DNA of 64,000 nt from positions 1,984,001 to 2,048,000 of the forward strand of contig OY744470.1 in assembly GCA_963556145.1 (NCBI GenBank), read 5' to 3'. This document shows positions 18,720 to 58,486 of the stretch, piece after piece. Each line of letters begins with the position of its first letter. Within the stretch, counting starts at the first letter, position 1. Source of the DNA: Hygrocybe punicea. Taxonomy: Eukaryota; Basidiomycota; Agaricomycetes; Agaricales; Hygrophoraceae. The notes beneath the pieces were generated by a model. That model was given only the letters and a program-made list of their open reading frames with translations. It ran no database searches and was not told the origin of the DNA. The position numbers and the translations under genes are program-made.

Positions 18720-19038
18720 TTTTTTGATAGATACTAGTAAATAATTTTAAAAATTGTCCTGTCTGCGCTTTCTTGATGTTAGTAACTTGCCATCCTAACA
18801 CATACACCTCATCCTTACTCTATGGAGTCTCTGGATTGATAATAATACAAGAGTTTTTTCTATGCAATGCAATGCACACCAAGGGGGAACAGGCATTCAA
18901 ACCAACCACAGACAAGTTTCAAAAAGGACACTGGCTCTGGCGGCAGAAAAAAAATGAGGAGTACTGTACCAATCCGGTCAATTCGCCTGTCACGCGTCAC
19001 ACAGGTTTCCAAAACACACCTGACCTTCCACACTACAA

Positions 19039-19085
19039 GCCTTATAATAGTGGTTGAACACATGTCTCAACCACTATTATAAGGC
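19039..19085. repeat. Terminal hairpin of the hAT-like element, left end
   Basis: GCCTTATAATAGTGGTTGA, a 9-nt loop, then its exact complement. The same hairpin, with one change, lies at 40208-40254 at the other end. Confidence 0.88.
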
Positions 19086-20029
19086 TCTAAAGTCTTAAAA
19101 CCGCGATCCGGCCATAAATCAGTCTCCACCCTAGCCTCAGTATATAAGTCTTATTAGTAGTTATTAGTAGCATATACTAGTAATGTGGTAGTGTCCTAAA
19201 TACGGCAATAACCTGTTCAGGAATGTCAGGTCTGGTCAGGAACAAGGGCGCTGATGGGCTCGGGCTTTCCCGTCACTGTTGCCATGGCCCCGCCCATCAC
19301 TCACAGGCATACACGCTCGTCGTCGTCGACGTTGAGCACAGCTATTTCACTATCCCGCCGTCTTTTCTTGCAGAATTTTTTACATATCATAGATATATTC
19401 TTATAAATACTGTATATAGACTAATATACATGAAAATAAACAAAATAAAAGAGAAATAAAAGAAGTAAGAAATTATGATACATGGGGCGCTGCCGACGAA
19501 TGGGTGGGTACTCACCTTCGCGGAGGCGCCGGACTGGGTCTGGAATTGATGGCGAAGGGTGGTGGAGGGTGGGTGATGGGAGGGATGGACACTGGGGGGG
19601 CAGGGAAGGGTGCATGGAGAGGGGGGTGGCGATGGGTGGCGAGGAAAGGTCTGGGAAGCAAGGCGGTTGGGGGAAACGGAGAGGGGATGGATTGGGGAGG
19701 GCTCCCGGCCCCAAACGAGTGGCAGGAAGGGGTAAGTATGTGGGGGAAAAGCAGGAGGGGGATGGGTACTCACCTGTACCATTAAGGCCCCCCACGGCCC
19801 CCTTTGCATTCCATCATCGATAAAAACAATGGGGACGTCATATATGACATCCCTGTGGTCCCCGTAGTGGGTTTCGCCGTCCAGATTGGTCCCGCCGTCA
19901 AGTTGCGCGAGGGTGGCGACTAGGGCGGTTGTGACGGCGGTATCTTGATGACACCGCTGCCGTTAACCACACCATCGCCAGTGGCGACTCTCCACAATGC
20001 CCTCGTCACCTTTGTCGCTGTGTGCCCGG

Positions 20030-20186
20030 TGTAGTAGTTGTGCCTGTACTGTCACGTGACTGGATTCCCATGGTTCGTCGTAGTCAGTAGCTGATCTGAT
20101 GTAGTAGACAGTTCCCATCCTAGTCTTTCTGTGCTTTCCAGCTAGACTCTGTCGGAGAGTCCCTCAGCAGCCTCCGACCCTCTCCA
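20030..20186 (+). repeat. Short LTR, 5' copy
   Basis: 157 bp, TG...CA ends; same length as the 3' copy at 23855-24011 with few differences (for example CCCATGG versus CCCACGG). Confidence 0.9.
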
Positions 20187-20189
20187 ACG

Positions 20190-20213
20190 TGGTGATGAGA
20201 GCGGCTTCGAACC
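20190..20213 (+). other. Primer-binding site
   Basis: TGGTGATGAGAGCGG three bases after the LTR, running on into TTCGAACC. Both the TGG start and the complement of a T-loop (GGTTCGAA) are expected for priming by a tRNA 3' end. Which tRNA is not determined. Confidence 0.7.
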
Positions 20214-20567
20214 CTGCCAGCAATTCCCCATGATCTCCCTGCTTTTCCATCTTTTCCTGGCTGTTACATTTTTCAACTCCGCAACTCCGATTCCGACTCC
20301 ACTACCCACGATGACGATTCCACTTTACCATACCTTCCTTTTTCGTTCCCCTTTACCTTTTGTCTTCTTTTGGACATTGTTGTTTATTCTTGTCCTTGTT
20401 CTCTTTTCTTCCTTTCTTCTTCTAGAACAATCCAGACCGACCATGGACACATCCCCACGTTACCTTGCTGTACCCGAATAGTCTCCTTGCCAACGGACAT
20501 CATCGCTATTGTCTTTTCCCTCACCCTGACATATTGTTGACTTCATCCCACGACAAACCGATTCACA

Positions 20568-20738
20568 ATGGCTGTACTCCCGACACAGCTCATTACCGTA
20601 ATTGTTATTGGCAGCATTGCCATCACCTTCCTGATCGGTTTCTACTTTGTTATGATCTATCTTTGGCATCGGCATCGAAACCCTTCTGCCATTGATACTT
20701 CTGACTTCCACCTCAACAATATCTCGACACGTAATTGA
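20568..20738 (+). CDS. 56-residue single-pass membrane peptide inside the LTR
   Basis: MAVLPTQLITVIVIGSIAIT continues through a ~23-residue hydrophobic segment to YLWHRHRNPSA, then a polar tail. The same frame is kept in the LTR at 38099-39750 (39444 to 39274, minus) with two conservative changes. In the third LTR it is cut by the 7.26-kb insertion. It ends in TGA, after which the frame stays open for 98 more codons. Whether it is translated is unknown. Confidence 0.5.
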   Translation: MAVLPTQLITVIVIGSIAITFLIGFYFVMIYLWHRHRNPSAIDTSDFHLNNISTRN

Positions 20739-21035
20739 CAATTGCCATTCCCGGATATATGGTTTCCACTTTCGTATTCTGTGCCTACCATTATCCTCCC
20801 TGACGATCCGATGACATTCCTCACCTGCACGCATGCCCTGGACAATCCTCGATCACGGGACATTTCACTGTTCTCTCTAATCCGACCATTGCCGAAGCAC
20901 ATTCTTTTGGACTTCGACCACAGACCATACGACTTCCCAAACAGTGAACCAACCCCTATCGTATATTGTTCGCACGACACCGCTTCAATGCAGTACCCGA
21001 TGACTTGTTCCCACAGCTTGTCACTCATGCCATGA
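20739..21035 (+). CDS. In-frame continuation after a conserved TGA in the LTR
   Basis: About 98 codons directly in frame after the TGA at 20736-20738 (QLPFPDIWFP... to HSLSLMP). No ATG near its start, so it could only be made by stop-codon readthrough or from another start. Open in all three LTR copies despite several amino-acid differences between copy 1 and the others. Confidence 0.4.
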   Translation, partial: QLPFPDIWFPLSYSVPTIILPDDPMTFLTCTHALDNPRSRDISLFSLIRPLPKHILLDFDHRPYDFPNSEPTPIVYCSHDTASMQYPMTCSHSLSLMP

Positions 21036-22083
21036 CTCGAAACCTGGACCCACATTCATTTAACCTTTTCCATCTTTCATCTTGATACCTCCCACACTCG
21101 TTTACAATGATACCCTTTCTTGGACGAATACCGACATCAGGTGGATTGCATTGTTCCACAGACAGGACAAGACATTGCTCCTCGATACGTCATCGACACA
21201 GACATCATCATCCGGTACAGCTTATGCTGTTCACATGTCTGACCTCGACTATCCCACCATCCTAGTTGGTTTTCCCTCCATACATTCCTTTGTTTTCCTT
21301 TATATCGACCTTTCGCTATGTCCCCGCTACCTCAAGACACTCTCATCACCAATCCTACACTGGACGATACCCATCTTCGACCCGACCGTGCAATGCACTT
21401 GCCAGACTGCGCACTTGCCTGTTACAGCAAGTGTAGACCCCGAATAGGCAATTCTGCACATCACATGATCCGATGACAAATCATCCGAGTCATCCGGACC
21501 CCCTCTATTCCTCAATGACACCTGGGCCTCCAGTTGGATCGCGAGAACATCGACATGAGGACGCCTCATGTCCGCCTCATGGTGAAAACATGGTGTAGTT
21601 GGACATGTTGTAGCTTCATGGTTGGATTCCCATTTACCTCCCCTCAAGTCCATTCACTATATCTACTGTCCTTGTTGTTGGTTCGGACTTTTTCTTCTTT
21701 TCCTTTCCTTACGTTTAGTCTGGTTCTTGGGGCAGACTCATCTTGTTTTGGGTAACCCCCACGGCTCGCAATGACATTAGACCTTGACCCCCCCTTTTTA
21801 GCAGTGTTGTCTTCGCTGTAAGCAACAATGAAAGCTGCTGTTCTCCCCTCTGGAAGCCGATCCCCTGTTAAGTTGATTGTTGCCGGAGCCCGCTGCAGAA
21901 GCGATCCGTAACACTGGCCCTTTCAGCACTTTTTTGAGCCCAGAACGTTGAATACCGAGAACCGAGCCCTTTGTTGTCCAAGAACCGTGAACTTTCAGAA
22001 TTTCGAGCACCAAGAACCGAGTACCGAGAACCTTCAGAACCTGAGCACCGAGAACTGCGAACCCAGCACATTTTCATTTCGCC

Positions 22084-23202
22084 ATGACAAACAACAAAAG
22101 GAAAACTACAAAAAAAGCCCCGGCTTCCATGCCTCAACAAGGACCTGCACCCACCGCTTCAGGTTCCCTATTTCAAGATGGCTTGCTCGTGCGCATGAAA
22201 GACGTAGAGAGATTGGTGGCAGGATGCCTCGAAAAAGGCAGGGCCGAAGGGATCTTACAAGGCATCGCGGAGGAGCGCGTGCATTGGGAGTCAACCCAAA
22301 TGGCCCCACCAACCCGCATATCAGCATCGACGCAGACGAATGCAGCAACCCAGCCAGAGCCGCTCACCGGCACTTCCGTCTCAACGCAAACAGAGCCGCG
22401 TACCCACGCAAACGCGTCAGCCCAAACGCCAACGCTCATCCCGACCCAAACGGCATCCAGCAGCATCTCCACGTCGACCCAGACGGCGCCATCCACCTGT
22501 GCATCCGTTTCAGCGCAGACTGACGTATCTACAGCATCTTCACTAGCACGCACCAGCAAGACCGTTTCAACGCAAACGACGCGGTTGCCCAGCGTCTCGG
22601 TGGCAACGCAGCACGACCTATTTAGCAATGTCACCGCAACCGCACAGACGACACCACTCATCGGCTCAACCGCGGCCGCCATCTTAGCACACCCGCGTAC
22701 ATCAAAAACGATGCACTACGCGTCAACGCCCACTCAGACAACCCTATCCGCCTGCACGTCTGCGTCAATACAAGCGGACGAGCCACCAATGCGCCCACCA
22801 ACACCCAGTGCGCATGGAGACACTCAGACGGCCCCGCCCTTGCGTGAAAACGTGTCCCAACACACCCCAACGCGTCACACACCCACGTCGACCCCAGGTC
22901 CACCACCCCCACCAAAGAACGTGTCCATACGCGTGTCAGACGGCAATTCCAATGCGCCGGCGCCAGTACCCAGCCAGTTTATGCCCCACAGGCCCAAAAT
23001 CCTGTGCCCGTGCACCAAAACGCGCCCAGACGCGCCCCAGACCCCATTTTCCCTCCAGGTCTATACCCACACGCGCCCACATCAGCCTGGAACCACAACG
23101 TCGCCCCCAGGAAGTCGCAAGCGCCAGCCCCATGTCCAGACGACGTCAAAACGTGAGCCGACGCGTACGCCAGGAACACGGAGACACAGACGGCGAGGGT
23201 AG
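22084..23202 (+). CDS. Gag-like protein with repeated TQT motifs
   Basis: 372 residues from ATG 22084. Residues ~35-70 form a short amphipathic helix of the kind found at the N-terminus of Agaricomycete gag-like proteins (DVERLVAGCLEKGRAEGILQ). Then follows low-complexity sequence with TQT at residues 83, 101, 121, 132, 163, 217 and 247, and AQT at about 114, 144 and 188, each in an STQT-like context. The C-terminus is Pro/Arg-rich and basic. No zinc knuckle, protease or RT. The TQT triplet is the core of ligands of dynein light chain LC8; such binding here is inference only. Confidence 0.6.
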   Translation: MTNNKRKTTKKAPASMPQQGPAPTASGSLFQDGLLVRMKDVERLVAGCLEKGRAEGILQGIAEERVHWESTQMAPPTRISASTQTNAATQPEPLTGTSVSTQTEPRTHANASAQTPTLIPTQTASSSISTSTQTAPSTCASVSAQTDVSTASSLARTSKTVSTQTTRLPSVSVATQHDLFSNVTATAQTTPLIGSTAAAILAHPRTSKTMHYASTPTQTTLSACTSASIQADEPPMRPPTPSAHGDTQTAPPLRENVSQHTPTRHTPTSTPGPPPPPKNVSIRVSDGNSNAPAPVPSQFMPHRPKILCPCTKTRPDAPQTPFSLQVYTHTRPHQPGTTTSPPGSRKRQPHVQTTSKREPTRTPGTRRHRRRG

Positions 23203-23228
23203 CTCAGACGAATGAGGAGATCCCGGCG

Positions 23229-23708
23229 ATGAGCAATGATACGCGCCTAGACGACGGGAAGGGCCAACGAGGGACCGCGAATGGCTCGATTCGCATGTGC
23301 AGCCCCACCCCAGCGAATTTGCCTGCACCTACGTTACCACCTCCGCGATTCGACTGGGCCGAAGACGCCGCCGCGATTCCTGTCCATCCCACCTTTCCAA
23401 CGCGAAATCCCCGCGACATGTCTGCTCTCCACTCCAATACCACGAGAAGACCATTTGCTACCCTACGGCACCGCGCTCGACGACGCAACCGCCCATGCGC
23501 CCAATGTTTCTTCACTGCCCCCACTGGTCCCATCGTCACTCGAAACCATCCACGTGGCATTGGTCCAGGACAGCCCATTGTCACACAACCCCTCATGCCA
23601 ACCAGCTCAAAGCCAACCAACTCGATGCACCTTGATTGGGATCGTGACCCCCGCCTTCATGACTTGAGTCGAGCCCTTGTAGCTTTGGGTTGGACAAGGC
23701 CTAGGTAG
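23229..23708 (+). CDS. Second retroelement frame of unknown function
   Basis: 159 residues downstream of the gag-like frame in another phase. Proline-rich, ending in LDWDRDPRLHDLSRALVALG, which looks like real protein rather than chance. It may be the end of the gag-like product reached by frameshift or splicing, but no junction could be chosen. Confidence 0.4.
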   Translation: MSNDTRLDDGKGQRGTANGSIRMCSPTPANLPAPTLPPPRFDWAEDAAAIPVHPTFPTRNPRDMSALHSNTTRRPFATLRHRARRRNRPCAQCFFTAPTGPIVTRNHPRGIGPGQPIVTQPLMPTSSKPTNSMHLDWDRDPRLHDLSRALVALGWTRPR

Positions 23709-23839
23709 AGTCGAGCTTTCTGTCTGGACTGATTTTTGTTTTGTTTTGTTCTTTTGTGTTTGTCGCTCTCTTTTCTTTTCCCCTTCCCCACCTTTCTTTT
23801 TGCTTCTCTCTCTTTGGCTAGCGACGAGGGCGTCGCTAC

Positions 23840-23854
23840 AAGAGGGGGGGCACT
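23840..23854 (+). other. Polypurine tract
   Basis: AAGAGGGGGGGCACT directly before the 3' LTR, the standard second-strand priming position. Confidence 0.75.
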
Positions 23855-24011
23855 TGTAGTAGTTGTGCCTGTACTGTCACGTGACTGGATTCCCACGGTT
23901 CGTCGTAGTCAGTAGCTGATCTGATGTAGTAGACAGTTCCCATCCTAGTCTTTCCGTGCTTTCCAGCTAGACTCTGTCGGAGAGTCCCTCAGCAGCCTCC
24001 GACCCTCTCCA
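23855..24011 (+). repeat. Short LTR, 3' copy
   Basis: 157 bp, matches 20030-20186; followed by the CCGG duplication. Confidence 0.9.
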
Positions 24012-25191
24012 CCGGTCCGCCACCACTGGTTTCGACGTTCGAGGCCATTGGTTGAAAAAGTCGGGCATGCTCCTGTGTGGCTTTGAGGACGTCCGGGGTG
24101 GTGGTCTCTGCACCAATCGTTGCCGTTGTCCTCATCGTCCTCGTTTCTCTTGTTGTTGAGGCGGTGGGGAGTGGGAGTGCAGCGGAATGGGGGATGGTGG
24201 TGGTAAAAGCCTAAAAGGCGTGTGACTTGTTCACTTGCCTTTTACTACCACATGCCCGCCTCCCAACTTGCCTCCTGCCACATTCCCACCGCCTCAATAA
24301 CAACAGAAATGAGGACAATGAGGACAATGGCAACGATTGGTGCAGAGACCACCACCCTGGACGTCCTCAAAGCCACACAGGAGCACGCCCGACTTTTTCA
24401 ACCAATGGCCTCAAATGTCGAAACCAGCGGTGGCGGACCGGGCACACAGTGACGAAGATGACAAGGGCATTGTGGAGAGTTGCCACTGGCGATGGTGTGG
24501 TTAATGGCGGTGGTGTCGTCAAGATATCGCTGTCGCAACCGCCCTAGTCGCCACCCTCACGCAACTTGATGGTGGGACCAATCTGGACGGCGAAACCCAC
24601 TACGGGGACCACAGGGATGTTGTATATGACGTCCCCATTGTTTTTATCGATGATGGAATGCAAAGGGGGCCGTGGGGGGCCTTAATGGTACAGGTGAGTA
24701 CCCATCCCCCTCCTGCTTTTCCCCCACATACTTACCCCTTCCCGCTGCTCGTTTGGGGCTGGGAGCCCTCCCCAATCCATTCCCTCTCCGTTTCCCCCAA
24801 CCGCCTCGCTTCCCAGACCTTTCCTCGGCATCCGCACGGGTAACCCCCGGGTATTTCACATGGACCCATACCCGATCGGACAAATACCCGTACCCAGGTC
24901 ACGGGTACGGGTCAGGCGGTGGGTCCATTTGGATAGCTGGCAGGTTGGACGGGTATGAGACGGGTCGCGGGTAACCCGACAACCTGTGTATTACAATAAT
25001 AAATACATTTTATTAAAATAAAATAAACAGAGGGTGGGGTACTTTTCCCCGCCCCGCCCGTCCTTCGCGTTCACTGACCCTCCTCGTTCTGCTGTCACGG
25101 CTCCACCCCACCGTCCCCATCATCCTCCTGTGTGCCGGTTCAGACGCGGTCTGAAACCCAGACCGAGGTGGGCTCCCATGAGCTCCGTTCT

Positions 25192-25243
25192 CCTCGCGAA
25201 TGGCAGGCATGTATCAATAGATACGGCGCTGCATATCGCGAGG
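25192..25243. repeat. CTCGCGA hairpin of the small hAT-like element
   Basis: CCTCGCGAATGGCAGGC...GTATC AATA GATAC...ATATCGCGAGG; imperfect stem with a 4-nt centre. Same design as the three units in the other copy (62712, 62861, 62962). Confidence 0.75.
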
Positions 25244-25319
25244 TAGATGGGTGCGGGGGAGCCCTCCGGTGTCCCCAAGGGATGTGGAGGGATGGGGGGT
25301 CTTGTCCCGTGGTCCCTGC

Positions 25320-25700
25320 CTGACATTGCCAGCGTTGCTGCTGCTGCCGCTGCTGCTGCCACTGCTGCTGCTGCTGCTGTTGCTGCCGGTGCTGCTGCTG
25401 CTGCCAATGCTGTTGCTGCCAGCGCTGCTGCTGCTGTCGTTGCAGTTGCTGCTGCTGCTGCTGCTGGCCATTGCCGTCGTCGTTGCCTGGTTGCCGTTGC
25501 CTGGTTGCCGTTGCCATAGCCGTTTCCGTTTCCATTGCCGCCACTGGTGGTGGTGGTGGTGGTGATGTTGCGGCTGTCCCGTGGGTGGTGTTGCTGCCAC
25601 GGCTGCTGCTGCTGGCATTGCTGCTGGCCGTTGCCGTCGTTGTTGTTGCCATTGCCATTGCTGTTGCTGCTGGTGGTGGTGGTGGTGTTGCGGCTGTCCC
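25320..25700. repeat. CTG/GTG trinucleotide-rich tract
   Basis: Interrupted GCTGCTG and GGTGGTG runs inside the small hAT-like element. The alanine- and leucine-rich open frames across it are by-products of the repeat. Confidence 0.85.
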
Positions 25701-27439
25701 GCATCTGTTGGTGTTGGTGTTGGGATCCATGTTGTGTGTGGTGGTGTGCTCACGATGTGCTCGTGGTCAAGTTGCCTGTGGCAGGTAATATTAGTAAAGT
25801 TAAGAAAATTTACGAGACTTACCTGTATTCATGAATGCGACATTGTGTCGTGTTCATGGGCCTTGTGTTGTTGTTGGGTGGTTGTGACAGGAAGTCACGT
25901 TTCAGTCACAGCTACCCGTGGGTTGACCACGGGTCACGGGTTTCTCGCCGGTTCGAATTTGGCTACCCGTACCCGAACCCGACGGGTCAGGGGTACAAAA
26001 CCCGCAGGGGTCCGTATACCCCTGCATATGCCTAGCCACCCCCCTCTCCATGCACCCTTCCCCGCCCCCCCAGTGTCCATCCCTCCCATCACCCACCCTC
26101 CACCACCCTTCGCTATCAATTCCAGACTGTTACGGATCGCTTCTGCAGCGGGCTCCGGCAACAATCAACTTAACAGGGGATCGGCTTCCAGAGGGGAGAA
26201 CAGCAGCTTTCATTGTTGCTTACAGCGAAGACAACACTGCTAAAAAGGGGGGGTCAAGGTCTAATGTCATTGCGAGCCGTGGGGGTTACCCAAAACAAGA
26301 TGAGTCTGCCCCAAGAACCAGACTAAACGTAAGGAAAGGAAAAGAAGAAAAAGTCCGAACCAACAACAAGGACAGTAGATATAGTGAATGGACTTGAGGG
26401 GAGGTAAATGGGAATCCAACCATGAAGCTACAACATGTCCAACTACACCATGTTTTCACCATGAGGCGGACATGAGGCGTCCTCATGTCGATGTTCTCGC
26501 GATCCAACTGGAGGCCCAGGTGTCATTGAGGAATAGAGGGGGTCCGGATGACTCGGATGATTTGTCATCGGATCATGTGATGTGCAGAATTGCCTATTCG
26601 GGGTCTACACTTGCTGTAACAGGCAAGTGCGCAGTCTGGCAAGTGCATTGCACGGTCGGGTCGAAGATGGGTATCGTCCAGTGTAGGATTGGTGATGAGA
26701 GTGTCTTGAGGTAGCGGGGACATAGCGAAAGGTCGATATAAAGGAAAACAAAGGAATGTATGGAGGGAAAACCAACTAGGATGGTGGGATAGTCGAGGTC
26801 AGACATGTGAACAGCATAAGCTGTACCGGATGATGATGTCTGTGTCGATGACGTATCGAGGAGCAATGTCTTGTCCTGTCTGTGGAACAATGCAATCCAC
26901 CTGATGTCGGTATTCGTCCAAGAAAGGGTATCATTGTAAACGAGTGTGGGAGGTATCAAGATGAAAGATGGAAAAGGATAAATGAATGTGGGTCCAGGTT
27001 TCGAGTCATGGCATGAGTGACAAGCTGTGGGAACAAGTCATCGGGTACTGCATTGAAGCGGTGTCGTGCGAACAATATACGATAGGGGTTGGTTCACTGT
27101 TTGGGAAGTCGTATGGTCTGTGGTCGAAGTCCAAAAGAGTATGCTCCGGCGATGGTCGGATTAGAGAGAACAGTGAAATGTCTTGTGATCGGGGATTGTT
27201 CAGAGTTCGCATGCAGGTGAGGAATGTCGTCGGATCGTCAGGGAGGATAATGGTGGGCACAGGGTACGAATATGGAAACCAAATATCCGGGAATGGCAAT
27301 TGTCAATTACGTGTCGATATATTGTCAGTAGACCCAGTCGTTTTGGTTAACCCAATCGCAGATATAGTTGCAAAAGGTAGGTACACATAGCGCAGTTGCT
27401 TGCTGGGGGGGTAGGTTAACCCAAAAGACAGCACTTGCT

Positions 27440-29200
27440 GGGGAAATGTGGTGTGGTAGGTTGACCCAGGTACAGCTCTTGCTGGTCAAGGCTGGCTGGT
27501 TGGGTCAACCTGGTGTCAGCTCTGCCATGGAGTCGGTTAACCCAGGGCAGCTATTCCAGGATGGTTGGGTTGACCCAGGCCCAGCTGTTCAAGCCATGTG
27601 GGTTGACCTGGCTGCAGTTATTGTTGCAGCACTGGGTTGACCCCAGTCCAGCTCTTGCTGCAGGCTGGGGTTGACCTAGATGCAGCTGTTGCTGCAGAAC
27701 TGGGTTGACTAGGGCCCAGCACTTGCTGGAGGGTGGGGTGACTGGGGTCCAGCGATTGCTGCAGCACTGGGTTGACCTGGCCCCAGCTCTTGCTGCAGCA
27801 CCGGGTCAACCAAGGGCCAGTTATTGCTGCAGCATGGGGTTGACCTGGCCCCAGCTCTTGCTGCAGCACCGGGTCAACCAAGGGCCAGTTATTGCTGCAG
27901 CATGGGGTTGACCTGGTCCCAGCTCTTGCTGCAGCACAGGGTCAACCTGGGCCCAGCTATTGCTGCAGCATTGGGTTGACCTGGGCCCAGCTATTGTTGC
28001 AGCACTGGGTTGACCCGGGTCCAGCACCTGCTGCAGGGCTTGGGTTGACCAGGATCAGCTATTGCTGCAGCACCAGGTCGACCTGGGCCCAGGTATTGCT
28101 GCAGCATTGGGCTGACCCGGGTCCAGCACCTGCAGGGCTTGGGTTGACCAGGATCCAGCTGTTGCTGCACCACCAGGTCGACCTGGGCCCAGCTATTGCT
28201 GCCGCATTGGGTTGACCTGGGCCAGATATTGCTGCAGCATTGGGTCGACCTGGTCCCAGCTCTTGCTGCAGCATTGGGTTGACCTGGCCCCAGCTCTGGC
28301 TGCAGAACCGGGTCAACCCAGGGCCAGCTATTGCTGCAGCATTGGGTTGACCTGGTCCCAGCTCTTTCCGCAGCACTGGGTCGACCTGGGCCCAGCTCTT
28401 GCTGCAGCATTGGGTCAACCCAGGTCCAGCTCTTGTTGCAGCATTGGGTCAACCCAGGTCCAGCACCTGCTGCAGGGCTTGGGTTGACCAGGATCCAGCT
28501 ATTGCTGCAGCACTTGGTTGACCCTGGCCCAGCACTTGCTGCAGGGTAGGTTGACCAGGGTCCATATATTGCTGCAGCACTGGGTTGACCCAGGTCCAGC
28601 ACCTGCTGCAGGGCTTGGGTTGACCGGGAGCCAGCGATTGCTGCAGCACTGGGTTGACCTGGCCCCAGCTCTTGCTGCAGCACCGGGTCAACCCAGGGCC
28701 AGTTATTGCTGCAGCATTAGGTGGACCCAGGTCCAGCACCTGCTGCAGGGCTTGGGTTGACCAGGATCCAGCTATTGCTGCAGCACCAGGTCGACCTGGG
28801 CCCAGCTATTGCTGCAACATTGGGTCGACCTGGGCCAGCTATTGCTGCAGGATTGGGTTGACCTGGCCCCAGCTCTTGCTGCAGCCCCAGGTCGACCTGG
28901 GCCCAGCTATTGCCACAGCATTGGGTTGACCTCAGCCTAGCTATTGCTGCAGCACTGGGTTGACCCAGGTCCAGCACTTGCTGCAGGATAGGTTGCCAGG
29001 GGCACAGCTCGTTCTGCACCATTGGGTTGATCCTGGACCCACTGATGGGGCAGGCTTGGGTTCACAAGGGTCTGGCTATTGCTCCAGCACTGCGTTGCCA
29101 TGCCCAGCTTTTGCTGCAGAAATGGGTTGACCCTGGCCCAGCTCTCCCTGCAGCATTGGGTTGACCAGCGTCCAGCTCTTGCTGCAATGTGGGCTCATGT
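27440..29200. repeat. 33-34-bp minisatellite, left arm
   Basis: About fifty variant units of the type GGGTTGACCTGGGCCCAGCT + ATTGCTGCAGCA(T/C)T. Each unit carries two short palindromes, GGTYGACC-like and GCTGCAGC. Open frames on both strands follow from the unit length and are not genes. Confidence 0.92.
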
Positions 29201-34466: not shown

Positions 34467-35943
34467 AGCAAGTGCTGTCTTTTGGGTTAACCTACCCCCC
34501 CAGCAAGCAACTGCGCTATGTGTACCTACCTTTTGCAACTATATCTGCGATTGGGTTAACCAAAACGACTGGGTCTACTGATATTGTTGAGGTGGAAGTC
34601 AGAAGTATCAATGGCGGAAGGGTTTTGGTGCCGATGCCAAAGATAGATCATAACAAGGTAGAAACCGATCAGGAAGGTGATGGCAATGCTGCCAATAACA
34701 ATTACAGTAATGAGCTGTGTCGGGAGTACAGCCATTGTGAATCGGTTTGTCGTGGGATGAAGTCAACAATATGTCAGGGCGAGGGAAAAGACAATAGCGA
34801 TGATGTCCGTCGGCAAGGAGACTATTCGGGTACAGCAAGGTAACGTGGGGATGTGTCCATGGTCGGTCTGGATTGTTCTAGAAGAAGAAAGGAAGAAAAG
34901 AGAACAAGGACAAGAATAAACAACAATGTCCAAAAGAAGACAAAAGGTAAAGGGGAACGAAAAAGGAAGGTATGGTAAAGTGGAATCGTCATCGTGGGTA
35001 GTGGAGTCGGAATCGGAGTTGCGGAGTTGAAAAATGTAACAATACCCCCGGAACAAGGACAATACCCCCGGAACAAGGGGAATCGTCCCGATTAACCGGA
35101 AGAACAAAGAACAAGGGAAACAAAGAACAAGGAAAAAAATACAAGGAAAGAACAGACAGTTTAACGACATGATCAAGGTCGGCAAGAAATCAAAGACATG
35201 AAGAAGGAAAAAATGTCAGTCCAAAGGTCATTGAATCATGAAGACGTTACTGAGTTACAAGGGTTTCAAAAGAAATATATCCGGGTTCGTCCAATTGTTT
35301 TTTGTCATTGTGGATATTCAGAGATCATTGTTATTTCGTTATTAAGTCGTCAAGGGTGTCGGGTTGAAAGGAGGTAAAGGTTGTCGGGGTCCAGGTGTTC
35401 ATTCAGGGTTTTCGGTTCAAAGAGAATTAGGTGGTCGGCATTTTTTGGGATGAGGGAGTTCTGGATGTCAGAGAGTTCTGGGTGTCAGAAGTTTATAGTC
35501 ATTACGGACATTTGAATGGGCATAGATTTATATCGTTTCAGATATCGGTGTTGTTGACTGATCGTGGATTTCCTACACTCAAATGGTGTGCGAGATTTCT
35601 TCATATTCCATGAATGCAACAGGGTCTGGTGTCGGTCAGAAGATGTTTGGGAATTCGGGATAAGGAAGATGAAAGAGTTGCCAGTTCCAAGTTATACATT
35701 GGCAAAGGATTTCGGATGGGGATTCATTCTTCATCGTTTCTTTTTCTGGTGCATTTACTGCCTTACTGGTCAGCAGCACATCGGGTTCCTTTCCTATGTG
35801 GGATCGGAGGTCATTGGTTTGAATCAAACCAGTATCCTTCTGGTTCAGTTCTGGTGTCCATAGACATCAAGGTTCATTCTACGGCTTATAGCGATCATGC
35901 ATGCGTCTGGGGGTCATAGATTTTATATCGTTTTGGATATACA

Positions 35944-36024
35944 TCTCTTATTTATATAGCTGGTGAGAGAACCTGCTGCTTCGTCTCTTATTTGTATAGC
36001 CGGTGAGAGAACCTGCTACATGTT
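35944..36024. repeat. Two-copy ~41-bp tandem repeat
   Basis: TCTCTTATTT(A/G)TATAGC(T/C)GGTGAGAGAACCTGCT occurs twice in a row in the interior of the long-LTR element. Confidence 0.8.
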
Positions 36025-36161
36025 TCTCTATGGTCATGTTCCATCTGTCCATTCCATTTCTGTTTCTTCTCTTCTGTTTCTGGGTATTCTGTTTCTTCTT
36101 CTGGGTGTTTTTGTTGGTGTAAATAATGTCGAGGTCGTTTACATACAAGGGAAAGTCCATT

Positions 36162-36653
36162 CTATGAATCATACATGACGGGGGTGTATCCTTTCACAAA
36201 CAACATCAATCTCCAATCCAATCCATGGATGTCATTCTCCTTCCCCTTCACCATACGCTCATGCATTGCACGAAATAAAGCATGACGATGATAATCAGGT
36301 TCTTTGGTCCCATGTCTCGAGCGTTTGTTCTGCATGTTATGGCCGTCAGAACGGTGTGCACGGTCGAGTTTCTTTTTCTGGGATTGGGGAAGAAGTGGAG
36401 AGCGGCGACGTGACTGGGTTTGGAGCGAGACAAGAGGTGGAGAATACAACCATGCTCGGTATTCATCATCCATCTCTATGTGCAGCCGGTGGGTTACTTT
36501 TCGAGGGGGTGTCGGAAGATCAGTGAGACTGTCCATGTACGCATCAAAGTCATCAATGGGGGGAGTCGGATGTTCTTCACCGCAAATATTCACTGCACCA
36601 AAATATAGCTCATTGTCCAGATCATCGAAGATAAAGGGTACGTCGAGACTCAT
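36162..36653 (-). CDS. Retroelement frame B, acidic protein of unknown function
   Basis: 163 residues from ATG 36653-36651. Starts MSLDVPFIFDDLDNELYFGA, acidic in the first half, basic in the second (SRRRSPLLPQSQKKK). Its ATG overlaps the TGA of the upstream frame (ATGA, 36650-36653). Family not recognised. Confidence 0.45.
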   Translation of the reverse strand: MSLDVPFIFDDLDNELYFGAVNICGEEHPTPPIDDFDAYMDSLTDLPTPPRKVTHRLHIEMDDEYRAWLYSPPLVSLQTQSRRRSPLLPQSQKKKLDRAHRSDGHNMQNKRSRHGTKEPDYHRHALFRAMHERMVKGKENDIHGLDWRLMLFVKGYTPVMYDS

Positions 36654-37123
36654 TGTCGATGTCGACGGTGGGGATGGTGTCGAGGATGCTGGACGATACG
36701 TGTGTCACGATGATTCTGGGGTACGGGTGCAAGACGAGGAGCGGGGATGCGAACAACGAATCGATGATGAGGAAGTTCTTCGTCCAAAATGTATTGGAGA
36801 CGCTGGAGGAGGAATTGGCTTCGACGATTTCTTTGCTCAGTGATCCGTAGACCACCCAGGAGACGGTGTAATTCGTCAAGGACCGGTGTCACGGATCGTG
36901 GAAGGAAGACGAGGTGAGGAATGCGAGGATCGTTCCAGCTGATGTAGTCGACCCAGTCGTCAGGTCGGTTGAGGGGGAACCAGGCAAGATCACACTGCCA
37001 CCAGCGACGGGCAGGCCACGGGTAGGGATGGCCTGGAGGGCAGAGGTTGGCCAGGGTGACGACAGGTGGGTGGTTTAAAGAAGTTTTCCGTCTTCGGTAA
37101 TTACCATGCCTCGTTGTCAGCAT
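36650..37123 (-). CDS. Retroelement frame A of unknown function
   Basis: 157 residues; the middle reads like a real domain (GHPYPWPARRWWQCDLAWFP, then DDWVDYISWNDPRIPHLVFL). The last ~60 residues are Arg/His-rich and may be out of frame: the overlapping frame at 36622-36879 (KNFLIIDSLFASPLLVLHPY) looks more protein-like there, so a frameshift or missed splice is possible. Confidence 0.45.
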   Translation of the reverse strand: MLTTRHGNYRRRKTSLNHPPVVTLANLCPPGHPYPWPARRWWQCDLAWFPLNRPDDWVDYISWNDPRIPHLVFLPRSVTPVLDELHRLLGGLRITEQRNRRSQFLLQRLQYILDEELPHHRFVVRIPAPRLAPVPQNHRDTRIVQHPRHHPHRRHRQ

Positions 37124-38098
37124 CGTGTCGGAGTTTCCAGTGATCGATCCATGTACCAGGGTCTTGGTTGCCTCGTGGATTCGTATGTATGATCGGGGAT
37201 CAAACTTCTAGAAAAAGAGGGTGTGTAGCGGGATATCACCTGATATGCCGATCCGCGCTATCCAAATTGGTAAGGAGTGGTATTTCATATGTGTTCCGTT
37301 CATGACAATCATTATAGTCTTGGTCGTTTGTTCATCCATGTTAAACAAAGAGGGTCCCCTTTCATCTGTTCCAACAGACTACTAAGATCAACCACTTCTC
37401 TTTGTTACATGTACAAGTCATCGCAGGATTCGGGGTTTCGTATGCATACTGGCTTTCTCTGGGCTTTCTGCATTTGGTGAGGAGATGGGGGGGAGGAGGT
37501 GGAAGGAAGGCTAGGAAGGCGGTTTGAAGGATTTATTGATTTCGGTTTGTCTAGGGCGAGGGAGTCGTAATATGTCTGGTACAACCAAAACATATTTGAA
37601 TCATGAAAGGTGGGATACCTAAAGTGATTGGTTTGTCTAGCAGTGTCCTTCTACATCTGGGGCAATGACAAGTCTTGTCCATTGCATCATTTCATGTCGT
37701 AATTATCATATCAAGGTATCGGAGTGACAGTGGTGACGTTAGTCAGGGGTTTATTACGATTTGGGTTCCAGGATTGGGCTTGAGCAATTATTATGGATAA
37801 ACCATAAATAATTCGCAGGGCGGCAGTCTTGAGGTTGACCATTCGGAGTATTCAACAATCATTCGGGTCCGGGTGGCTAGTGTACATCAACAGATTTCAG
37901 GTCTGTGTCAGTAACAGGCTAGCATCATTCGTTCGTCCATTCGTGTGGGGTCAGGGTTTAGGGATGAATAAAGTCGAGAGGAGGAGGAGAGGGAGAGGGT
38001 GTAGGGGAGGACGAGGGAGGGATTCGGAAGAGAGGAGGGGGTTCATTCGTTCATGTCGAAAGTTGAATGTCGAGGGAGTTGGGAAACGTTTAGTCTTT

Positions 38099-39750
38099 TG
38101 TTACGGATCGCTTCTGCAGCGGGCTCCGGCAACAATCAACTTAACAGGGGATCGGCTTCCAGAGGGGAGAACAGCAGCTTTCATTGTTGCTTACAGCGAA
38201 GACAACACTGCTAAAAAGGGGGGGTCAAGGTCTAATGTCATTGCGAGCCGTGGGGGTTACCCAAAACAAGATGAGTCTGCCCCAAGAACCAGACTAAACG
38301 TAAGGAAAGGAAAAGAAGAAAAAGTCCGAACCAACAACAAGGACAGTAGATATAGTGAATGGACTTGAGGGGAGGTAAATGGGAATCCAACCATGAAGCT
38401 ACAACATGTCCAACTACACCATGTTTTCACCATGAGGCGGACATGAGGCGTCCTCATGTCGATGTTCTCGCGATCCAACTGGAGGCCCAGGTGTCATTGA
38501 GGAATAGAGGGGGTCCGGATGACTCGGATGATTTGTCATCGGATCATGTGATGTGCAGAATTGCCTATTCGGGGTCTACACTTGCTGTAACAGGCAAGTG
38601 CGCAGTCTGGCAAGTGCATTGCACGGTCGGGTCGAAGATGGGTATCGTCCAGTGTAGGATTGGTGATGAGAGTGTCTTGAGGTAGCGGGGACATAGCGAA
38701 AGGTCGATATAAAGGAAAACAAAGGAATGTATGGAGGGAAAACCAACTAGGATGGTGGGATAGTCGAGGTCAGACATGTGAACAGCATAAGCTGTACCGG
38801 ATGATGATGTCTGTGTCGATGACGTATCGAGGAGCAATGTCTTGTCCTGTCTGTGGAACAATGCAATCCACCTGATGTCGGTATTCGTCCAAGAAAGGGT
38901 ATCATTGTAAACGAGTGTGGGAGGTATCAAGATGAAAGATGGAAAAGGATAAATGAATGTGGGTCCAGGTTTCGAGTCATGGCATGAGTGACAAGCTGTG
39001 GGAACAAGTCATCGGGTACTGCATTGAAGCGGTGTCGTGCGAACAATATACGATAGGGGTTGGTTCACTGTTTGGGAAGTCGTATGGTCTGTGGTCGAAG
39101 TCCAAAAGAGTATGCTCCGGCGATGGTCGGATTAGAGAGAACAGTGAAATGTCTTGTGATCGGGGATTGTTCAGAGTTCGCATGCAGGTGAGGAATGTCG
39201 TCGGATCGTCAGGGAGGATAATGGTGGGCACAGGGTACGAATATGGAAACCAAATATCCGGGAATGGCAATTGTCAATTACGTGTCGATATATTGTTGAG
39301 GTGGAAGTCAGAAGTATCAATGGCGGAAGGGTTTTGGTGCCGATGCCAAAGATAGATCATAACAAGGTAGAAACCGATCAGGAAGGTGATGGCAATGCTG
39401 CCAATAACAATTACAGTAATGAGCTGTGTCGGGAGTACAGCCATTGTGAATCGGTTTGTCGTGGGATGAAGTCAACAATATGTCAGGGCGAGGGAAAAGA
39501 CAATAGCGATGATGTCCGTCGGCAAGGAGACTATTCGGGTACAGCAAGGTAACGTGGGGATGTGTCCATGGTCAGTCTGGATTGTTCTAGAAGAAGAAAG
39601 GAAGAAAAGAGAACAAGGACAAGAATAAACAACAATGTCCAAAAGAAGACAAAAGGTAAAGGGGAACGAAAAAGGAAGGTATGGTAAAGTGGAATCGTCA
39701 TCGTGGGTAGTGGAGTCGGAATCGGAGTTGCGGAGTTGAAAAATGTAACA
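38099..39750 (-). repeat. Long LTR, intact copy
   Basis: 1,652 bp; the element's 5' LTR if its frames set the orientation. Carries the membrane-peptide frame (39444-39274) and its in-frame continuation to ~38977. Confidence 0.93.
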
Positions 39751-40207
39751 CAGACCCAGTCCGGCGCCTCCGCGAAGGTGAGTACCCACCTGTTCGTCGG
39801 CAGCGCCCCATGTATCATAATTTCTTACTCCTTTTATTTCTCTTTTATTTCGTTTATTTTCATGTATATTAGTCTATATACAGTATTTATAAGAATATAT
39901 CTATGATATGTAAAAAATTCTGCAAGAAAAGACGGCGGGATAGTGAAATAGCCGTGCTCAACGTCGACGACGACGAGCGTGTATGCCTGTGAGTGATGGG
40001 CGGGGCCATGGCAACGGTGACGGGAAAGCCAGAGCCCATCAGCGCCCTTGTTCCTGACCAGACCTGACGTTCCCGAACAGGTTATTGCCGTATTTAGGAC
40101 ACTACCACATTACTAGTATATGCTACTAATAACTACTAATAAGACTTATATACTGAGGCTAGGGTGGAGACTGATTTATGGCCGGATCGCGGTTTTAAGA
40201 CTTTAGA

Positions 40208-40254
40208 GCCTTATAATAGTGGTTGAGACATGTGTTCAACCACTATTACAAGGC
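40208..40254. repeat. Terminal hairpin of the hAT-like element, right end
   Basis: Mirror counterpart of 19039-19085; 19-bp arms with one mismatch around a 9-nt loop. Confidence 0.88.
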
Positions 40255-41203
40255 TTGTAGTGTGGGAAGGTCAGGTGCCAAAACGGCGAAATGTCACGCT
40301 TGTCACGCGTCACCTAGGATATCGGCGAATTCACCAGACCATTTCCATTTATGGTATATATGTCTAAATATAGTAATTATGGTAATGAACGATTCAATCG
40401 ACATCGGATGCCTCATTGTCCCAGTGCCGTGTGAAGTCTGAGAAACGGTACAGCCTGGTTGCGACTTTCTTGTGCTTCCCTCTGCCCACCTCCACCTCAT
40501 TTTCACTCTCCTCCTTTTCACCTTCCTCCGAATCCTCCCCCACTCTTTTGGCAGATATTGGTAACACATCCATGTCTTCTGCTTGTGCTGTCACCATCAA
40601 GCCACCATTCTCACGTGTGCCAATGCATTGACGACATCGGGTGTGCAGGGGACTTCGGTGAGTAGTAGCCACAACATCTTTGAGGCTAACATTGCTGTCG
40701 TCCAATTCCTCTTCTTCTTCGGGTTCCGGGATCAAGTCTTCAACGACCAAGGCCCCCATCACTGGCTGGATATGACAGGTGTTCACCTGATTCAATTCAA
40801 TCCAAAAAGGATCATTTTTCGTATGTAAGTCCCTCAATCTTTTTTGCATTTCACGTGATCTCAGTGATCCGTGGGACATTTTTGCAGTCCTTGACGACAC
40901 AGAGCTCGAATGCCTGTTTCACAGCGTTGGTAAGTCTTTGTAGGTTCTGGAGCTAAAGTTCTGGTTTCTTACCTTCACCACGATCTCTGGCTTATTCAAG
41001 GTCTCAAATGCTTTCCATAACCACCTCACACTCACATTCCGGAGTGTTGGCAGCCTGTCATCAAAGGTGACTCCTTTGCCGGCATCAATTTGCGTGAGTG
41101 TGTTTTCCACGACGTCTTCTGAAAAACACTCATTTGTAATGTGCTTGAAGGGTCATTGTATTCCGACATCACAAGGCTGTACCATACTGGTACAGCCTCC
41201 CGG

Positions 41204-41349
41204 TGTGGAGGGACGGAGTCAGCTGGGAGAACTGGGATGGAATCGAGTGATGATAGTGATGATAATCCCTACAACACGAGATCTGTACTACTAAGGAAAC
41301 ACAACCGTGGGAATCCTAGTCACGTGACTGTCCAGGTACATCTACTACA
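41204..41349 (-). mobile_element. Solo LTR related to the short-LTR family
   Basis: 146 bp, starts TGTAGTAGATGTACCTGG on the minus strand and shares GTCACGTGACT.GGATTCCCACGG with the LTRs at 20030 and 23855. Flanked by CCGG on both sides (41200-41203; 41350-41353). Removing it rejoins FMPGGCT of the transposase. Confidence 0.85.
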
Positions 41350-41874
41350 CCGGCATGAAGTCAATGAGGATTGTTGGGTGTGTTTCATGCATCCAGTCCA
41401 AGAATTCTTCTGACAGATGCACAGCCCATACATCAATCTTCCATAACGATCGCTGCTCTTCTGGATAGCCCAATCTAGCTTTGGTCTCATCGAAATAAGG
41501 TGCGAGAATTCCGTTGACAAAATTTTTCATGGTTCACTGATTGGCCCAATATGTCTTGGTTCCAGAAAACTCAAATCGAAAGCCTGCAGTGATTGCAGCA
41601 TCATAGCATGGGGCCTTCGAATCTGGGCACGATCGATCGATCTTTCCTTGATAGACAGCTTGAAACGGAAGAAGGGTGCCGGCACTCGTTACTGTAACCA
41701 TTACGGTGAAGGCCCTTTTCTCATCTCCGCCTATCACTGAGACTTGCTTTGCGCCGGTTTTCGCATACGTCAACTTGTCGCCTGCGGCATATAATCGTTG
41801 GGTCTGGTCTGAGTTTGCATACAACTCCGCTGGAATATTGTATTCTTTCAAAAGGTAGGCTTTCCTGAGAGCTG

Positions 41875-42820
41875 TTTTATTTTTTTATTTTTTTATTTTA
41901 TTTCAGTGTTTATTCTCCTGTGTGGTGAACCATATGTCAGAGAATACAAAACACGTATACTACGTCATGTTCAGAGTCGAAGTTGTCATAAGTAACAAAG
42001 TGGGTCAGCAGTGCCAACCCGGGGTGGAATAATATCCACATAATATAACTACCTATAAGGTGTGAAAAGTATATTGGTGTTTACAAGCGGGTTAATTAAT
42101 AATGAGTAGAATTGAGAATGGAAAAGAGAATGAGAATGAAAATGAGAATGGGAGTCCAAGTAGGGTGGCTGTTCATCGAGCAGATCGGGGTAGTGGGAGG
42201 GCACCGGATGGGTCACTACTCGAGGTCCAATATCGGGATATCCCCGAACGTCGCCTGGAGGTGCCAAGATTCACTAACGAAGCGGAGGATGTGTGGAAAG
42301 TACTTCGATGTGGAGAGGATGCGTTTAATAATGCCTGCATCTCATCCGATCTCGCGCCTTAGCTTCTCTCGCGTGTGATCGTGCACTCGGCAATGCAGCA
42401 GGTAGTGTTCCACTGTCTCATTATATCGCTGACAGCATGGACAGAGGGGAGAGTCAGCGCACTGTATTCGATGGAGGTGTTGATTTAGTCTGATATGTCC
42501 TGTTCGCAGTTGCATGATTATCGCTGTGTGTTTCTTTGGTAGTGAGGCTGTGGCTCGTCAGTACGTCGATGGTGTGAATCCTGGGTCAATGCCCCGTATC
42601 TGTGCAGAGTGCGCTGAGTTGTGCCAGTGCTCTTGCGCTCGCCTTCATAGTTTGTTGAGGAAGGCTCGTCGCACCGCTGATTTGCTATGCGGTAGTGGTT
42701 TGCGAAGGTCGGCCGGTAGTCTCTCTCATGGTGTTACGTTGCCCCCCGCCGCAGCTTTGGCTCTCTCGTCCGCTCGTTCGTTTCCCTTGACTCCTTCATG
42801 ACCTGGTATCCATCTCACGG
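41875..42820 (-). mobile_element. 5'-truncated LINE (Tad-like) inserted in the transposase
   Basis: Flanked by the 9-bp duplication TGAGAGCTG (41866-41874; 42821-42829). Begins (minus strand) inside an RNase H domain, LTVRWIPGHEGVKGNERADE, continues in a shifted frame to LRTGHIRLNQHLHRI and CPCCQRYNETVEHYLLHC (C-terminal zinc knuckle), and ends in an A-rich tail at 41875-41905. The coding part is frameshifted and dead. Excision rejoins the transposase peptide KSALRKAYLLKEYNIPAEL. Confidence 0.88.
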
Positions 42821-45463
42821 TGAGAGCTGATTTATCGCATTGGTCTTCCCGGTTATCAGGAAGTTTGTGGGCAGCACGAGTGGCCTTATGATGCCTCCAA
42901 CCCATGGTCTCATGCAACCACCTTCTCACAAAGGTGTCAGAAGCGTGGAAAGTTGATCCATCATGAAATCGACGCTGCAAGATAGCAGGTTCCTCTCAGA
43001 TAATTGTTGCGATCATGACTCCTCGAGCTGTGATTACTGACACCGCAACCTCGTTGTTGTGGAGCTCAGACAAATGCTCTTTTATTTTCATGACAACAAC
43101 TGGGTAGTTGGACTGGTTTCTGTGAGTTAATTTGTCTGTTATCCACCAAGATGCAGCTCACCAGTATCCCGCGAGGTCCTCCATTCGGGTGGCCCGGCAT
43201 ATTCCCAGCCTTGATCTTGAGCAATGTTGAGTCTGACAACCATGGTTGCAGACCTGATCGATCGATCCACTCTCTGACGGTCTCCCATGCCAGACCCTTA
43301 AAAATAATCAGATACTGTGCCTTGGCAATTTTGACTATCTGCGTTGCACTCATTTTCCATCCTGCAGCTTTAGCAGCTTCTTTGATCATCCTCCAGCACA
43401 CTGGGCTAAACCAATTGTGATACTTGGCCTGACGTGGCATGTGTTTTGCTTTGCGACCCTGAGGTTTCCATTTTTTTTCCTTGATTTTTCTTTCCAATAG
43501 TTGTGCTGGGCGTGTTTCCTCAGCCAGTTCCATGCGGCGTCTCTTCGACAAGCCAGAATCTACTAACTCGGCTGGAACAAGTTTGCGCTTGGTTCCACCA
43601 GGGCTCCGAATTCCAGCAATTATTTCCTGCTCATTCTGTTTGTGGCGGTGTTTGCGTTGTCGCAGCTTGGCTTTCATTTGCTTCCCTAGCAACTGCTGTT
43701 CTTTGGCAACCCGTGTAAGTGTCTCATCGCCCTCCCTGTCATGGACAACCTCCTGTTCCCTTGCGAGATTTGCATCATATTCTTCGGGTGTGCAGGGCTT
43801 GAAGAACTTCAACAGCGGGGCGTTCTTGGCCCCAAGCGCCGTTCACACAGAGGATTCAATCTTGATACGTGACTGTGCTGACAATCTGATTTCAGATCGC
43901 ATTGAATCCCAGGGTAGATCGGCAGGGAGAAGATCTTGGGAGGCTGGCATGCTCTCGTCATCGGATGAGTATTTGGATGAGGATGACTCGTCATTTGTGT
44001 TGCATGGATGTTCAGTGGACCCAGCTAAGTCAGGGCCTGTCTGGACTGACACCACTTTAAAGTCTGAGTCCAATTCCTCATCCGAAGACGAGGTGTTCAG
44101 GATAGGTAACTGGATGTTGTATTCATACGCAACATTGCATGAATGGCCACCCTGTGTCACAAATGTTAATTAATCCAGTGTCGTTTGATGAAAACTGACC
44201 TCCATCTGGTGTTGTTCACAGACACGTAACAAAACCTGGAGCCTGGCTACAGCGACATCTGAAGGAGCTATTAGTGGGTGTTGGATGGGCAGGAAATAAT
44301 GAGAGAGGGCATTCCCCGCAAAAAGACCGCATGAGAAGCTGTCACTTTGGTAAGTGACCAGCATCTTCTTGTATATGAATGTCATTGATGTGTACTCTTC
44401 TAACAACCAGCCAAGGGCCGCTTCGATGTTTGTATCGAGCTTCCAATGTAGGGAATCACCATACCAAATGACACCATGAAGGAAGTCCAACACCATGGCA
44501 ATCCAGTGAGTCTTTCGGGTATTCACAATAGTCCCCAACTAAGTTAGAACTCCAGAGGCCAGTGATTCTCCAATGACATGGATAGCCCTCGGGTGGGTGT
44601 TTTTCCCTTGCCGGTGCTGGTGGTGCTGGTGATTAAAGGCACAGAGGATTGCATCAACGAAGTCTGCATCCTGAATGGTGATTTTATTGGGTGCTATGTG
44701 GTGTTTATTGATGTCATGCTGTAGCAGGTCCAGCATCTGATTCTCATGAGCTGCCATCAGCCAGTTCGAGGTGGCATATTGATGTAAGTAAATCATATCA
44801 CAAGTCTCACGGAAGCCATGGACTGATCCAAACCATGGTAACCAGCTGAATGTGGTGTAGACCCTGTCCACAAGCTCTCGGGTGCCGGCTCCCTGCTTAT
44901 GAAGGTTTTGTAGGGTCTGATTAGCTAAAATCCAGGATTGGTGGTCCTTGTGGAGGTGATGGATCTCGTTCCAGTACGTGATGATCCAGAGGGGAAGATA
45001 TTTTATCCTGGCTGAATCTAGATTGTGGGCTACAGATCTTGGAATCGAGGCCATCGTGGAACTTGACCTGAGGCAGTCGAAGAGGTCTTTGACCACAGAG
45101 AGTAACGGAACTGGAGCTGAAAGAATGGTATAGATATCTTCTGTATGGGTATTGGGTGGTTTGGCCGCAATGACAATGTGTGAAGCTTGATGCTCGGGAG
45201 GTGTACTATTTAGTGGTGGGATCTTGAAGGCAACAAAGGCATTGATGGACAAATTTTGATTCGGGAGGGTGCGCTGGAGAATTTCAGGTGGAATATTGAG
45301 CTCAAGCATCCTCAGAGAAAGAAATTTGGATATATTGCATCTAAGTACTTAGTGGATGAAAATTTCCCCTGTCACGCGTCATGACCATTTGTGGCGAATT
45401 GGCAGATTCACCTTTCATGTCACGCATCACATGGCCTGGCGAATTGACCGGATTGGTACAGTA

Positions 45464-50245: not shown

Positions 50246-50316
50246 AATATATATTACACTTAATTTATTAACTGCCAACTTTATGGACGAATTAAATGGG
50301 GATACACATAGGAGAC

Positions 50317-51370: not shown

Positions 51371-51476
51371 ATCCCCTGTGACAACTGTAACAAATCCCCC
51401 TTGTATGGTGGCAAGCATAACCATCACTCCAAGGAAAGCTATGACTATTCAGTACCGGAATATTAGGTATGTTACG
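51371..51476 (+). pseudogene. FAS2 relic, part left of the gypsy element
   Basis: ASITITPRKAMTIQYRNIRYVT continues across the retroelement into DGVPLLGTTIKPAKQLGSE (61209 onward). Spacing from RK to DGV equals that of the conserved FAS alpha-subunit motif between the ACP-side domain and the ketoreductase. Weak on its own, convincing with the right part. Confidence 0.55.
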
Positions 51477-58472: not shown

Positions 58473-58486
58473 GTTCGAAGGGGGGA

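Follow-up and report, generated by a model that had tools for sequence, protein, structure and literature searches.

How one transposon came to contain so many others, and whether its layers were acquired at random, is the question raised by the stretch of DNA investigated in this study, a window of 64,000 bp at C36:1984001-2048000 of a genome of 92.2 Mb and 42 contigs. A sequence-only reading had described a four-level nest of transposable elements (TEs) in this window, with a pogo-like element at its base and a palindromic element as its second layer. Our analysis supports a nest of four levels, whose insertions can in part be ordered in time, based on target-site duplications, on the piecewise alignment of interrupted repeats and on empty sites found in the genome. 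It also revealed a property that had escaped this reading, namely that the palindromic layer reflects a repeated target preference.

The repeats of the nest, which were located by self-comparison of the window, define nine insertions (Table 1), where at least seven had been proposed; those that had been missed are a solo long terminal repeat (LTR) of the short type and a fragment resembling a long interspersed nuclear element (LINE), both within the pogo body. The coordinates of the outer element were confirmed, with TA on both sides and matching inverted ends, and so was the position within it of the palindromic element, bracketed by CCAAAAC followed by A on one side and G on the other. The duplications described for the short-LTR element (CCGG), the long-LTR element (CAGAC) and a solo long LTR (CTGGC) were equally read at their junctions. 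In case of a 7.26-kb element within the long LTR, the insertion stands but the duplication is not the proposed TATTG but the 7-bp sequence ATATTGT, with a length of exactly 7 bp in all 13 pairs of this family including the window's. Similarly, a small hAT-like element is present in the palindrome, although without a readable duplication, which makes it the exception among the nine insertions, eight of which have kept theirs in the window.

The lengths of the interrupted repeats balance as had been described. If aligned piecewise without their inserts, as the earlier reader had suggested, both pairs of repeats match: the left arm of the palindrome faces a right arm whose length is given as a range because the placement of the left boundary of the small hAT varies, and the two long LTRs differ at one position in 1,652 (1198/1198 and 453/454 identical). 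Instead of the three empty sites described within the window we find four, those of the long-LTR, the short-LTR and the 1.2-kb hAT-like element in the opposite arm of the palindrome and that of the 7.26-kb element in both LTR2 and the solo long LTR. A search for other copies of each layer, also proposed at the outset, recovered relatives of every family of the nest elsewhere in the same genome. Out of 46 candidates for the palindrome site in pogo, 40 were scored (70-93% identity, distant relatives included), and in 32 of them the pogo sequence is continuous across the site. Copy L004 carries CCAAAACG uninterrupted, and the A in the left duplication is thus probably the altered base. Three relatives of the short-LTR element, of about 2.3-2.4 kb as judged from row coordinates, are devoid of the solo long LTR, and the pogo copy at C41:4242147-4246270 contains neither the solo short LTR nor the LINE-like insert. 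No empty site of the outermost TA insertion was found among 40 scored of 279 candidates.

The relative time order that had been claimed for the nest is retained as a partial order. The pogo-like element preceded the palindrome, which in turn preceded the short-LTR, the hAT-like and the long-LTR element, and these siblings remain unordered with respect to each other. On the inner branches, the short-LTR element preceded the solo long LTR and the long-LTR element the 7.26-kb element, and in the pogo body the pogo-like element preceded both the LINE-like insert and the solo short LTR. The inner layers fit a young age, with few changes behind this estimate: the LTRs differ at 2 positions in 157 in the short-LTR element compared to 1 in 1,652 in the long-LTR element, and the two arms of the 7.26-kb element match without a difference along 2,368 bp. 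The long-LTR and the 7.26-kb layers are those expected to be youngest. The arms of the palindrome were rejected as a clock since their identity drops towards the centre, from 98.1% at the outside to 93.7% and 87.4% in the window and from 98.5% to 75-88% in a copy on C39.

The palindromic layer is probably not due to chance, so that randomness would not account for all layers of the nest. Relatives of the palindrome were scored at 40 places out of 137 candidates and grouped by us into 30 elements, of which 18 had their flanks read in a first and 10 in a second round, with 2 left unread; the second round covered 10 of the 12 elements then unread and was fetched after a motif had been chosen. This motif, GTCAC or its complement GTGAC, is found within about 52 bp in 25 of the 28 flanks of the first round (24 scripted, L086, L094 and the window's two, with five spurious inner matches excluded). 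Among the test flanks of the second round, the first script detected it within 38 bp in 8 of 9 compared to 5 of 60 controls (P about 1.3e-6), and its presence in a tenth flank, which adjoins a one-base variant of the end, brings the count to 9 of 10. Overall, the motif is present in 33 of 37 flanks of 38-60 bp in length, comprising 27 from the first round (L006 being dropped as mirror image of L007) and the ten from the second. Its nearest occurrence in the 33 positive flanks is at a distance of 14-18 bp in 20 cases. Another 8 flanks have it at 23-27 bp, about one helical turn beyond, and the remaining 5 at 9-11 or 20 bp. In the sample read, the palindrome family thus inserts most often about 15 bp, equivalent to 1.5 helical turns, from GTCAC/GTGAC.

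Such an enrichment might result from survival only, if insertions into transposons were tolerated and transposons happened to hold GTCAC repeats, in which case no targeting would be involved. The genome is indeed rich in TEs and several of the flanks belong to repeats, yet the flanks of two other families of the same genome show the motif in only 6 of 60 cases at a length of 52 bp. If extended to 60 bp, it is found in 7 of 60, with the nearest at 12, 20, 21, 23, 30, 43 and 51 bp, and in tiles of the window in 224 of 2,460. Tolerance also does not predict the peak at 14-18 bp, which contains 20 of the 37 palindrome flanks and none of the 60 controls, and we thus regard survival without targeting as improbable. 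Recognition of its own sequence is not an obvious explanation either, since the motif is absent from the outer 250 bp of both arms of the palindrome. GTCAC/GTGAC motifs cluster in the subterminal regions of pogo and at least one further repeat resembling the inverted ends of a transposon. A palindrome at C34:410k resides in a non-pogo repeat whose rejoined 98-bp site is uninterrupted elsewhere, and the matches to this target include eight inverted pairs, 3.5-6.5 kb apart and of 78-87% identity, as expected for the inverted ends of another transposon.

Of the 30 grouped elements, which form a pogo-biased sample, 6 are inserted in pogo ends. At the left end, the duplications TTCCAAAA (C39), CCAAAACR (window) and GGCGAAAT (C40:1971) occupy query positions 44-51, 46-53 and 53-60 and thus define three overlapping but distinct sites within 17 bp, the last of which was read on its left side, with the right side taken from overlapping coordinates. 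In a pogo variant at C40:1865 the palindrome is flanked by GTCAAAAT, and at C2:1176 and C40:1938 it has hit the opposite, right end. The presence of a palindrome near the same pogo end in several copies could suggest that pogo had gained it once and that the composite had subsequently spread by transposition or segmental duplication, but the different positions of the duplications imply independent insertions, and the homology of L004 and L008 to the window ends at the pogo end. Composite transposition of pogo together with the palindrome was thus rejected, as it is contradicted for the copies read, and a spread of the composite appears very unlikely in general. That the entire nest would be an assembly artefact of collapsed repeats is hardly credible, since eight of the nine insertions have kept their duplications here, while elsewhere in the genome matching empty sites exist for the pogo target and the duplications of the 7.26-kb family are likewise 7 bp long. 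Even so, the mirrored, 100% identical flanks and the N run of a relative at C2:4825k indicate that repeats of this genome may at times be misassembled or masked.

We therefore consider it likely that the nest was built by successive insertions at this locus, with a palindromic layer that was guided by a motif. The process started with the insertion of a pogo-like DNA transposon into TA, which has left its duplication, with no empty site found, followed by the insertion of the non-autonomous palindrome into the left subterminal region of pogo, as reflected in the 8-bp duplication. Two LTR elements and the hAT-like element, whose duplication did not survive, then entered the palindrome. A long-LTR element inserted into the short-LTR element, as its duplication documents, and presumably was reduced to a solo LTR by recombination between its LTRs, and the 7.26-kb foldback-type element inserted into LTR1. 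Separately, the solo short LTR and the LINE-like piece entered the pogo body, where their duplications are found.

From these properties we infer the palindrome to be a non-autonomous, target-specific transposon that homes on subterminal motifs of other transposons. In the likely mechanism, the motif would be bound by a transposase, probably encoded by an autonomous partner not seen here, or by a protein associated with it, and the palindrome would be joined at a fixed offset of 1.5 helical turns. We hold the chances to be about even that the palindrome acts as a target-specific parasite of transposons, which reads TGTCAC-like sites, inserts about 15 bp away and homes to ends where such sites cluster, thereby sparing host genes and seeding nests. 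As a speculation, GTCAC could constitute the binding site of the targeted transposons' own transposases, with the palindrome being a hitch-hiker on their ends.

Several observations weigh against this interpretation. The motif is missing in 4 of 37 flanks and the nearest is located outside of the 14-18-bp range in 13 of the 33 positive ones. Both motif and offset were first noticed in these same data, the palindrome query contained pogo sequence and 40 of 137 candidates were scored, so that insertions into pogo are over-represented. The flanks are in part not independent, as they include the two sides of one element and shared target families, with L089 and L090 mirroring each other and L078, L081 and L112 resembling one target family, and 4 of the 30 LTR control flanks concern 3' LTRs, whose left flank is internal to the element. 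Both sides are known for 11 palindromes, and in 7 of these the 8-bp duplication typical of hAT transposons is present with no more than one mismatch (in one case judged from coordinates only), while it is missing in 4. A transposase was found for neither the palindrome nor the 7.26-kb element, and the 1.2-kb hAT of the window is without a readable duplication.

Which TE lands in which other is usually attributed to chance and survival, whereas the palindrome seems to follow a rule of short motif and fixed offset. If this was true, the formation of nests would in part be programmed and the ends of TEs would provide a safe harbour that is addressed by sequence. It is thus the target rule rather than the nesting itself that carries the interest, in a sample that is modest and partly biased.

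Table 1. Features of the nest, with positions in the window; levels count from the outermost element.
Feature	Position	Strand	Evidence or remark
TA duplication, left, of pogo-like element	18962-18963	.	Junction read
Pogo-like element, level 1	18964-45461	-	Matching inverted ends CTGTACCAATCCGGTCAATTCGCC; transposase pieces on minus strand
TA duplication, right, of pogo-like element	45462-45463	.	Junction read
Palindrome duplication, left	19009-19016	.	CCAAAACA, 8 bp
Palindromic element, level 2	19017-40277	.	About 2.44 kb excluding inserts; 8-bp duplication
Palindrome, left arm	19017-20029 + 24016-24228		1013 + 213 = 1,226 bp
Palindrome, right arm	24229-24824 + 26035-26127 + 39756-40277		1,211-1,220 bp
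Palindrome duplication, right	40278-40285	.	CCAAAACG, 8 bp, one mismatch to left copy
Short-LTR element, level 3	20030-24011	+	LTRs 20030-20186, 23855-24011; CCGG at 20026-20029, 24012-24015
Solo long LTR, level 4	20262-21913	-	1,652 bp; CTGGC at 20257-20261, 21914-21918
1.2-kb hAT-like element, level 3	about 24825-26034	.	Ends of relatives TAGGCAT/ATGCCTA or near it
740-bp middle of hAT-like element	25137-25876	.	Segment of a different repeat, about 1.15 kb long
Long-LTR element, level 3	26128-39750	+	CAGAC at 26123-26127, 39751-39755
LTR1 of long-LTR element	26128-27325 + 34588-35041		
LTR2 of long-LTR element	38099-39750		
Foldback-type element, level 4	27326-34580	.	7,255 bp; ATATTGT at 27319-27325, 34581-34587
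Solo short LTR in pogo, level 2	41204-41349	-	CCGG duplication on both sides
LINE-like 0.95-kb insert in pogo, level 2	41875-42820	-	Exact 9-bp duplication, TGAGAGCTG
Second pogo-borne gene, two adjacent pieces	44170-45348	-	Open reading frames; match of downstream piece below cut-off

The family of the palindrome is characterized by the end sequence CACCTGACC. Two of its four members devoid of the 8-bp duplication have mirrored flanks, one of them next to a run of N. A 191-residue open reading frame (ORF) in the left arm of the window's element showed no match in Pfam, and a partner sharing the palindrome ends was not searched for. The region C2:4823948-4832635 (L006, L007, L077) constitutes a mirror image, with an outer flank that is 100% identical over 1.5 kb and an N run at its centre, and is either a huge palindrome or an assembly artefact.

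The combination of a TA duplication and inverted ends in the outermost element is characteristic for pogo and the IS630-Tc1-mariner group. The broken pieces of its transposase gave no DDE hit in Pfam, and five homologous proteins gave none above cut-off. One piece has 37 homologous proteins, of which 2 carry PF03184 and 1 carries PF13358, and 3 are named "DDE-1 domain-containing" in their source. The downstream piece of the second gene resembles a Ulp1/C48 peptidase at a level below cut-off (E 0.0019), and the DNA of this part of the element is also present in relatives of 64-74% identity. The right flank of the element enters another high-copy repeat. The LINE-like insert contains a zf-RVT match (E 1.6e-7), and a match to ribonuclease H (E 7.4e-8) straddles its edge, with the conserved part located inside by our reading. 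Short derivatives of pogo at C2:8126199-8126855 and C35:2641499-2642161, which retain roughly 360 bases from the start and 310 from the end of the query, resemble miniature inverted-repeat transposable elements generated by internal deletion, and at C39:2599546-2615780 a copy is broken at one position with its remainder located in reverse about 10-13 kb away, as if by inversion.

In the free copies of the 1.2-kb hAT-like element, the TAG/CAG-type termini (with ends similar to TAGGCAT/ATGCCTA) and the 8-bp duplication expected for hAT transposons were found in three out of three cases read. Its 740-bp middle was rejected as a fifth nested insertion, and is more likely a captured piece, because its relatives run on beyond its edges (7 loci read). 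The long and the short LTR elements both show direct LTRs with TG..CA ends and duplications of 4-5 bp, as is characteristic for LTR retrotransposons, and they are probably non-autonomous; six internal ORFs, three of them from the long-LTR element, did not match any Pfam family. Among 30 long-LTR loci that were read, a strict scripted test identified 13, including the window's solo LTR, as a single LTR within an exact 5-bp duplication, the others being LTRs of full elements or loci with ends left unread by the script.

The 7.26-kb family looks recently active. Its 28-base end occurs 179 times in forward and 172 times in reverse orientation in the genome (with up to 3 mismatches; control 0), which corresponds to roughly 175 elements. 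Of 441 candidates for its 1.2-kb centre, 40 were scored, and the 39 other than the window's show 94-100% conservation, 38 of them over its full or near-full length. ORFs of up to 305 residues overlap this centre, yet 8 ORFs of the element (88-305 residues), which are largely simple-repeat sequence, showed no match in Pfam, and neither a transposase nor an autonomous partner was seen. It thus constitutes a further apparently recent family without known partner.

Outside of the nest, a gene at 15238-16479 of the window has relatives that, where named by organism (4 of 47 rows), all belong to Agaricomycetes (Boletus, Ceratobasidium, Collybiopsis, Mycena), which points to an Agaricomycete-type fungus as host. 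Just beyond the nest we find a fragment of a KDZ transposase (47401-47865, minus strand; PF18758, E 2.2e-44), followed at 48877-51380 by partly self-complementary tandem repeats of 169 and 104 bp that adjoin a 1.07-kb inverted repeat of 94% identity, and at 51476-61210 by directly repeated sequences of some 0.8 kb (96%) around long ORFs on the minus strand, which by their motif read like a Gypsy-type polyprotein. A scan of the window against Rfam gave no match at gathering score.

When compared to known systems, the 7.26-kb family shows the long inverted repeats containing tandem repeats that define Foldback elements. As far as seen from the parts of the description available to us, it shares with Tetris of Drosophila virilis such repeats, a middle without apparent coding capacity, target duplications and the lack of a known autonomous copy (PMC4079207), but it differs in its abundance of about 175 copies as judged by its ends, in the 2,368 bp of identical arms in the window copy, in its 34-bp units and in its 7-bp duplication. 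The latter, together with the fungal host, relates it to hAT7, described in the accessible part of its source as hAT transposons of rust fungi with 7-bp duplications (PMC12730594). Distinct from hAT7 as described there are its long inverted repeats, its Agaricomycete-type host and the absence of a hAT transposase among the features seen. In the accessible portion of the literature on homing to TE ends, fungal foldbacks and target choice of hAT transposons, a palindromic element of this kind is not described, although this portion leaves subscription journals mostly uncovered and thus does not prove its absence in print.

Nested TEs are ordinary in TE-rich plant and fungal genomes, where successive insertions, their duplications and solo LTRs define a partial order. 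The nest investigated here is the same in kind and is distinguished by one layer that obeys a target rule. In this respect, the palindrome resembles Dada, DNA transposons that, according to the portion of their description accessible to us, target multicopy small RNA genes, as both address a sequence-defined site in multicopy DNA. However, in contrast to Dada as described there, it is a non-autonomous element with an 8-bp duplication, whose targets are the subterminal regions of other transposons, defined by a short motif at an offset.

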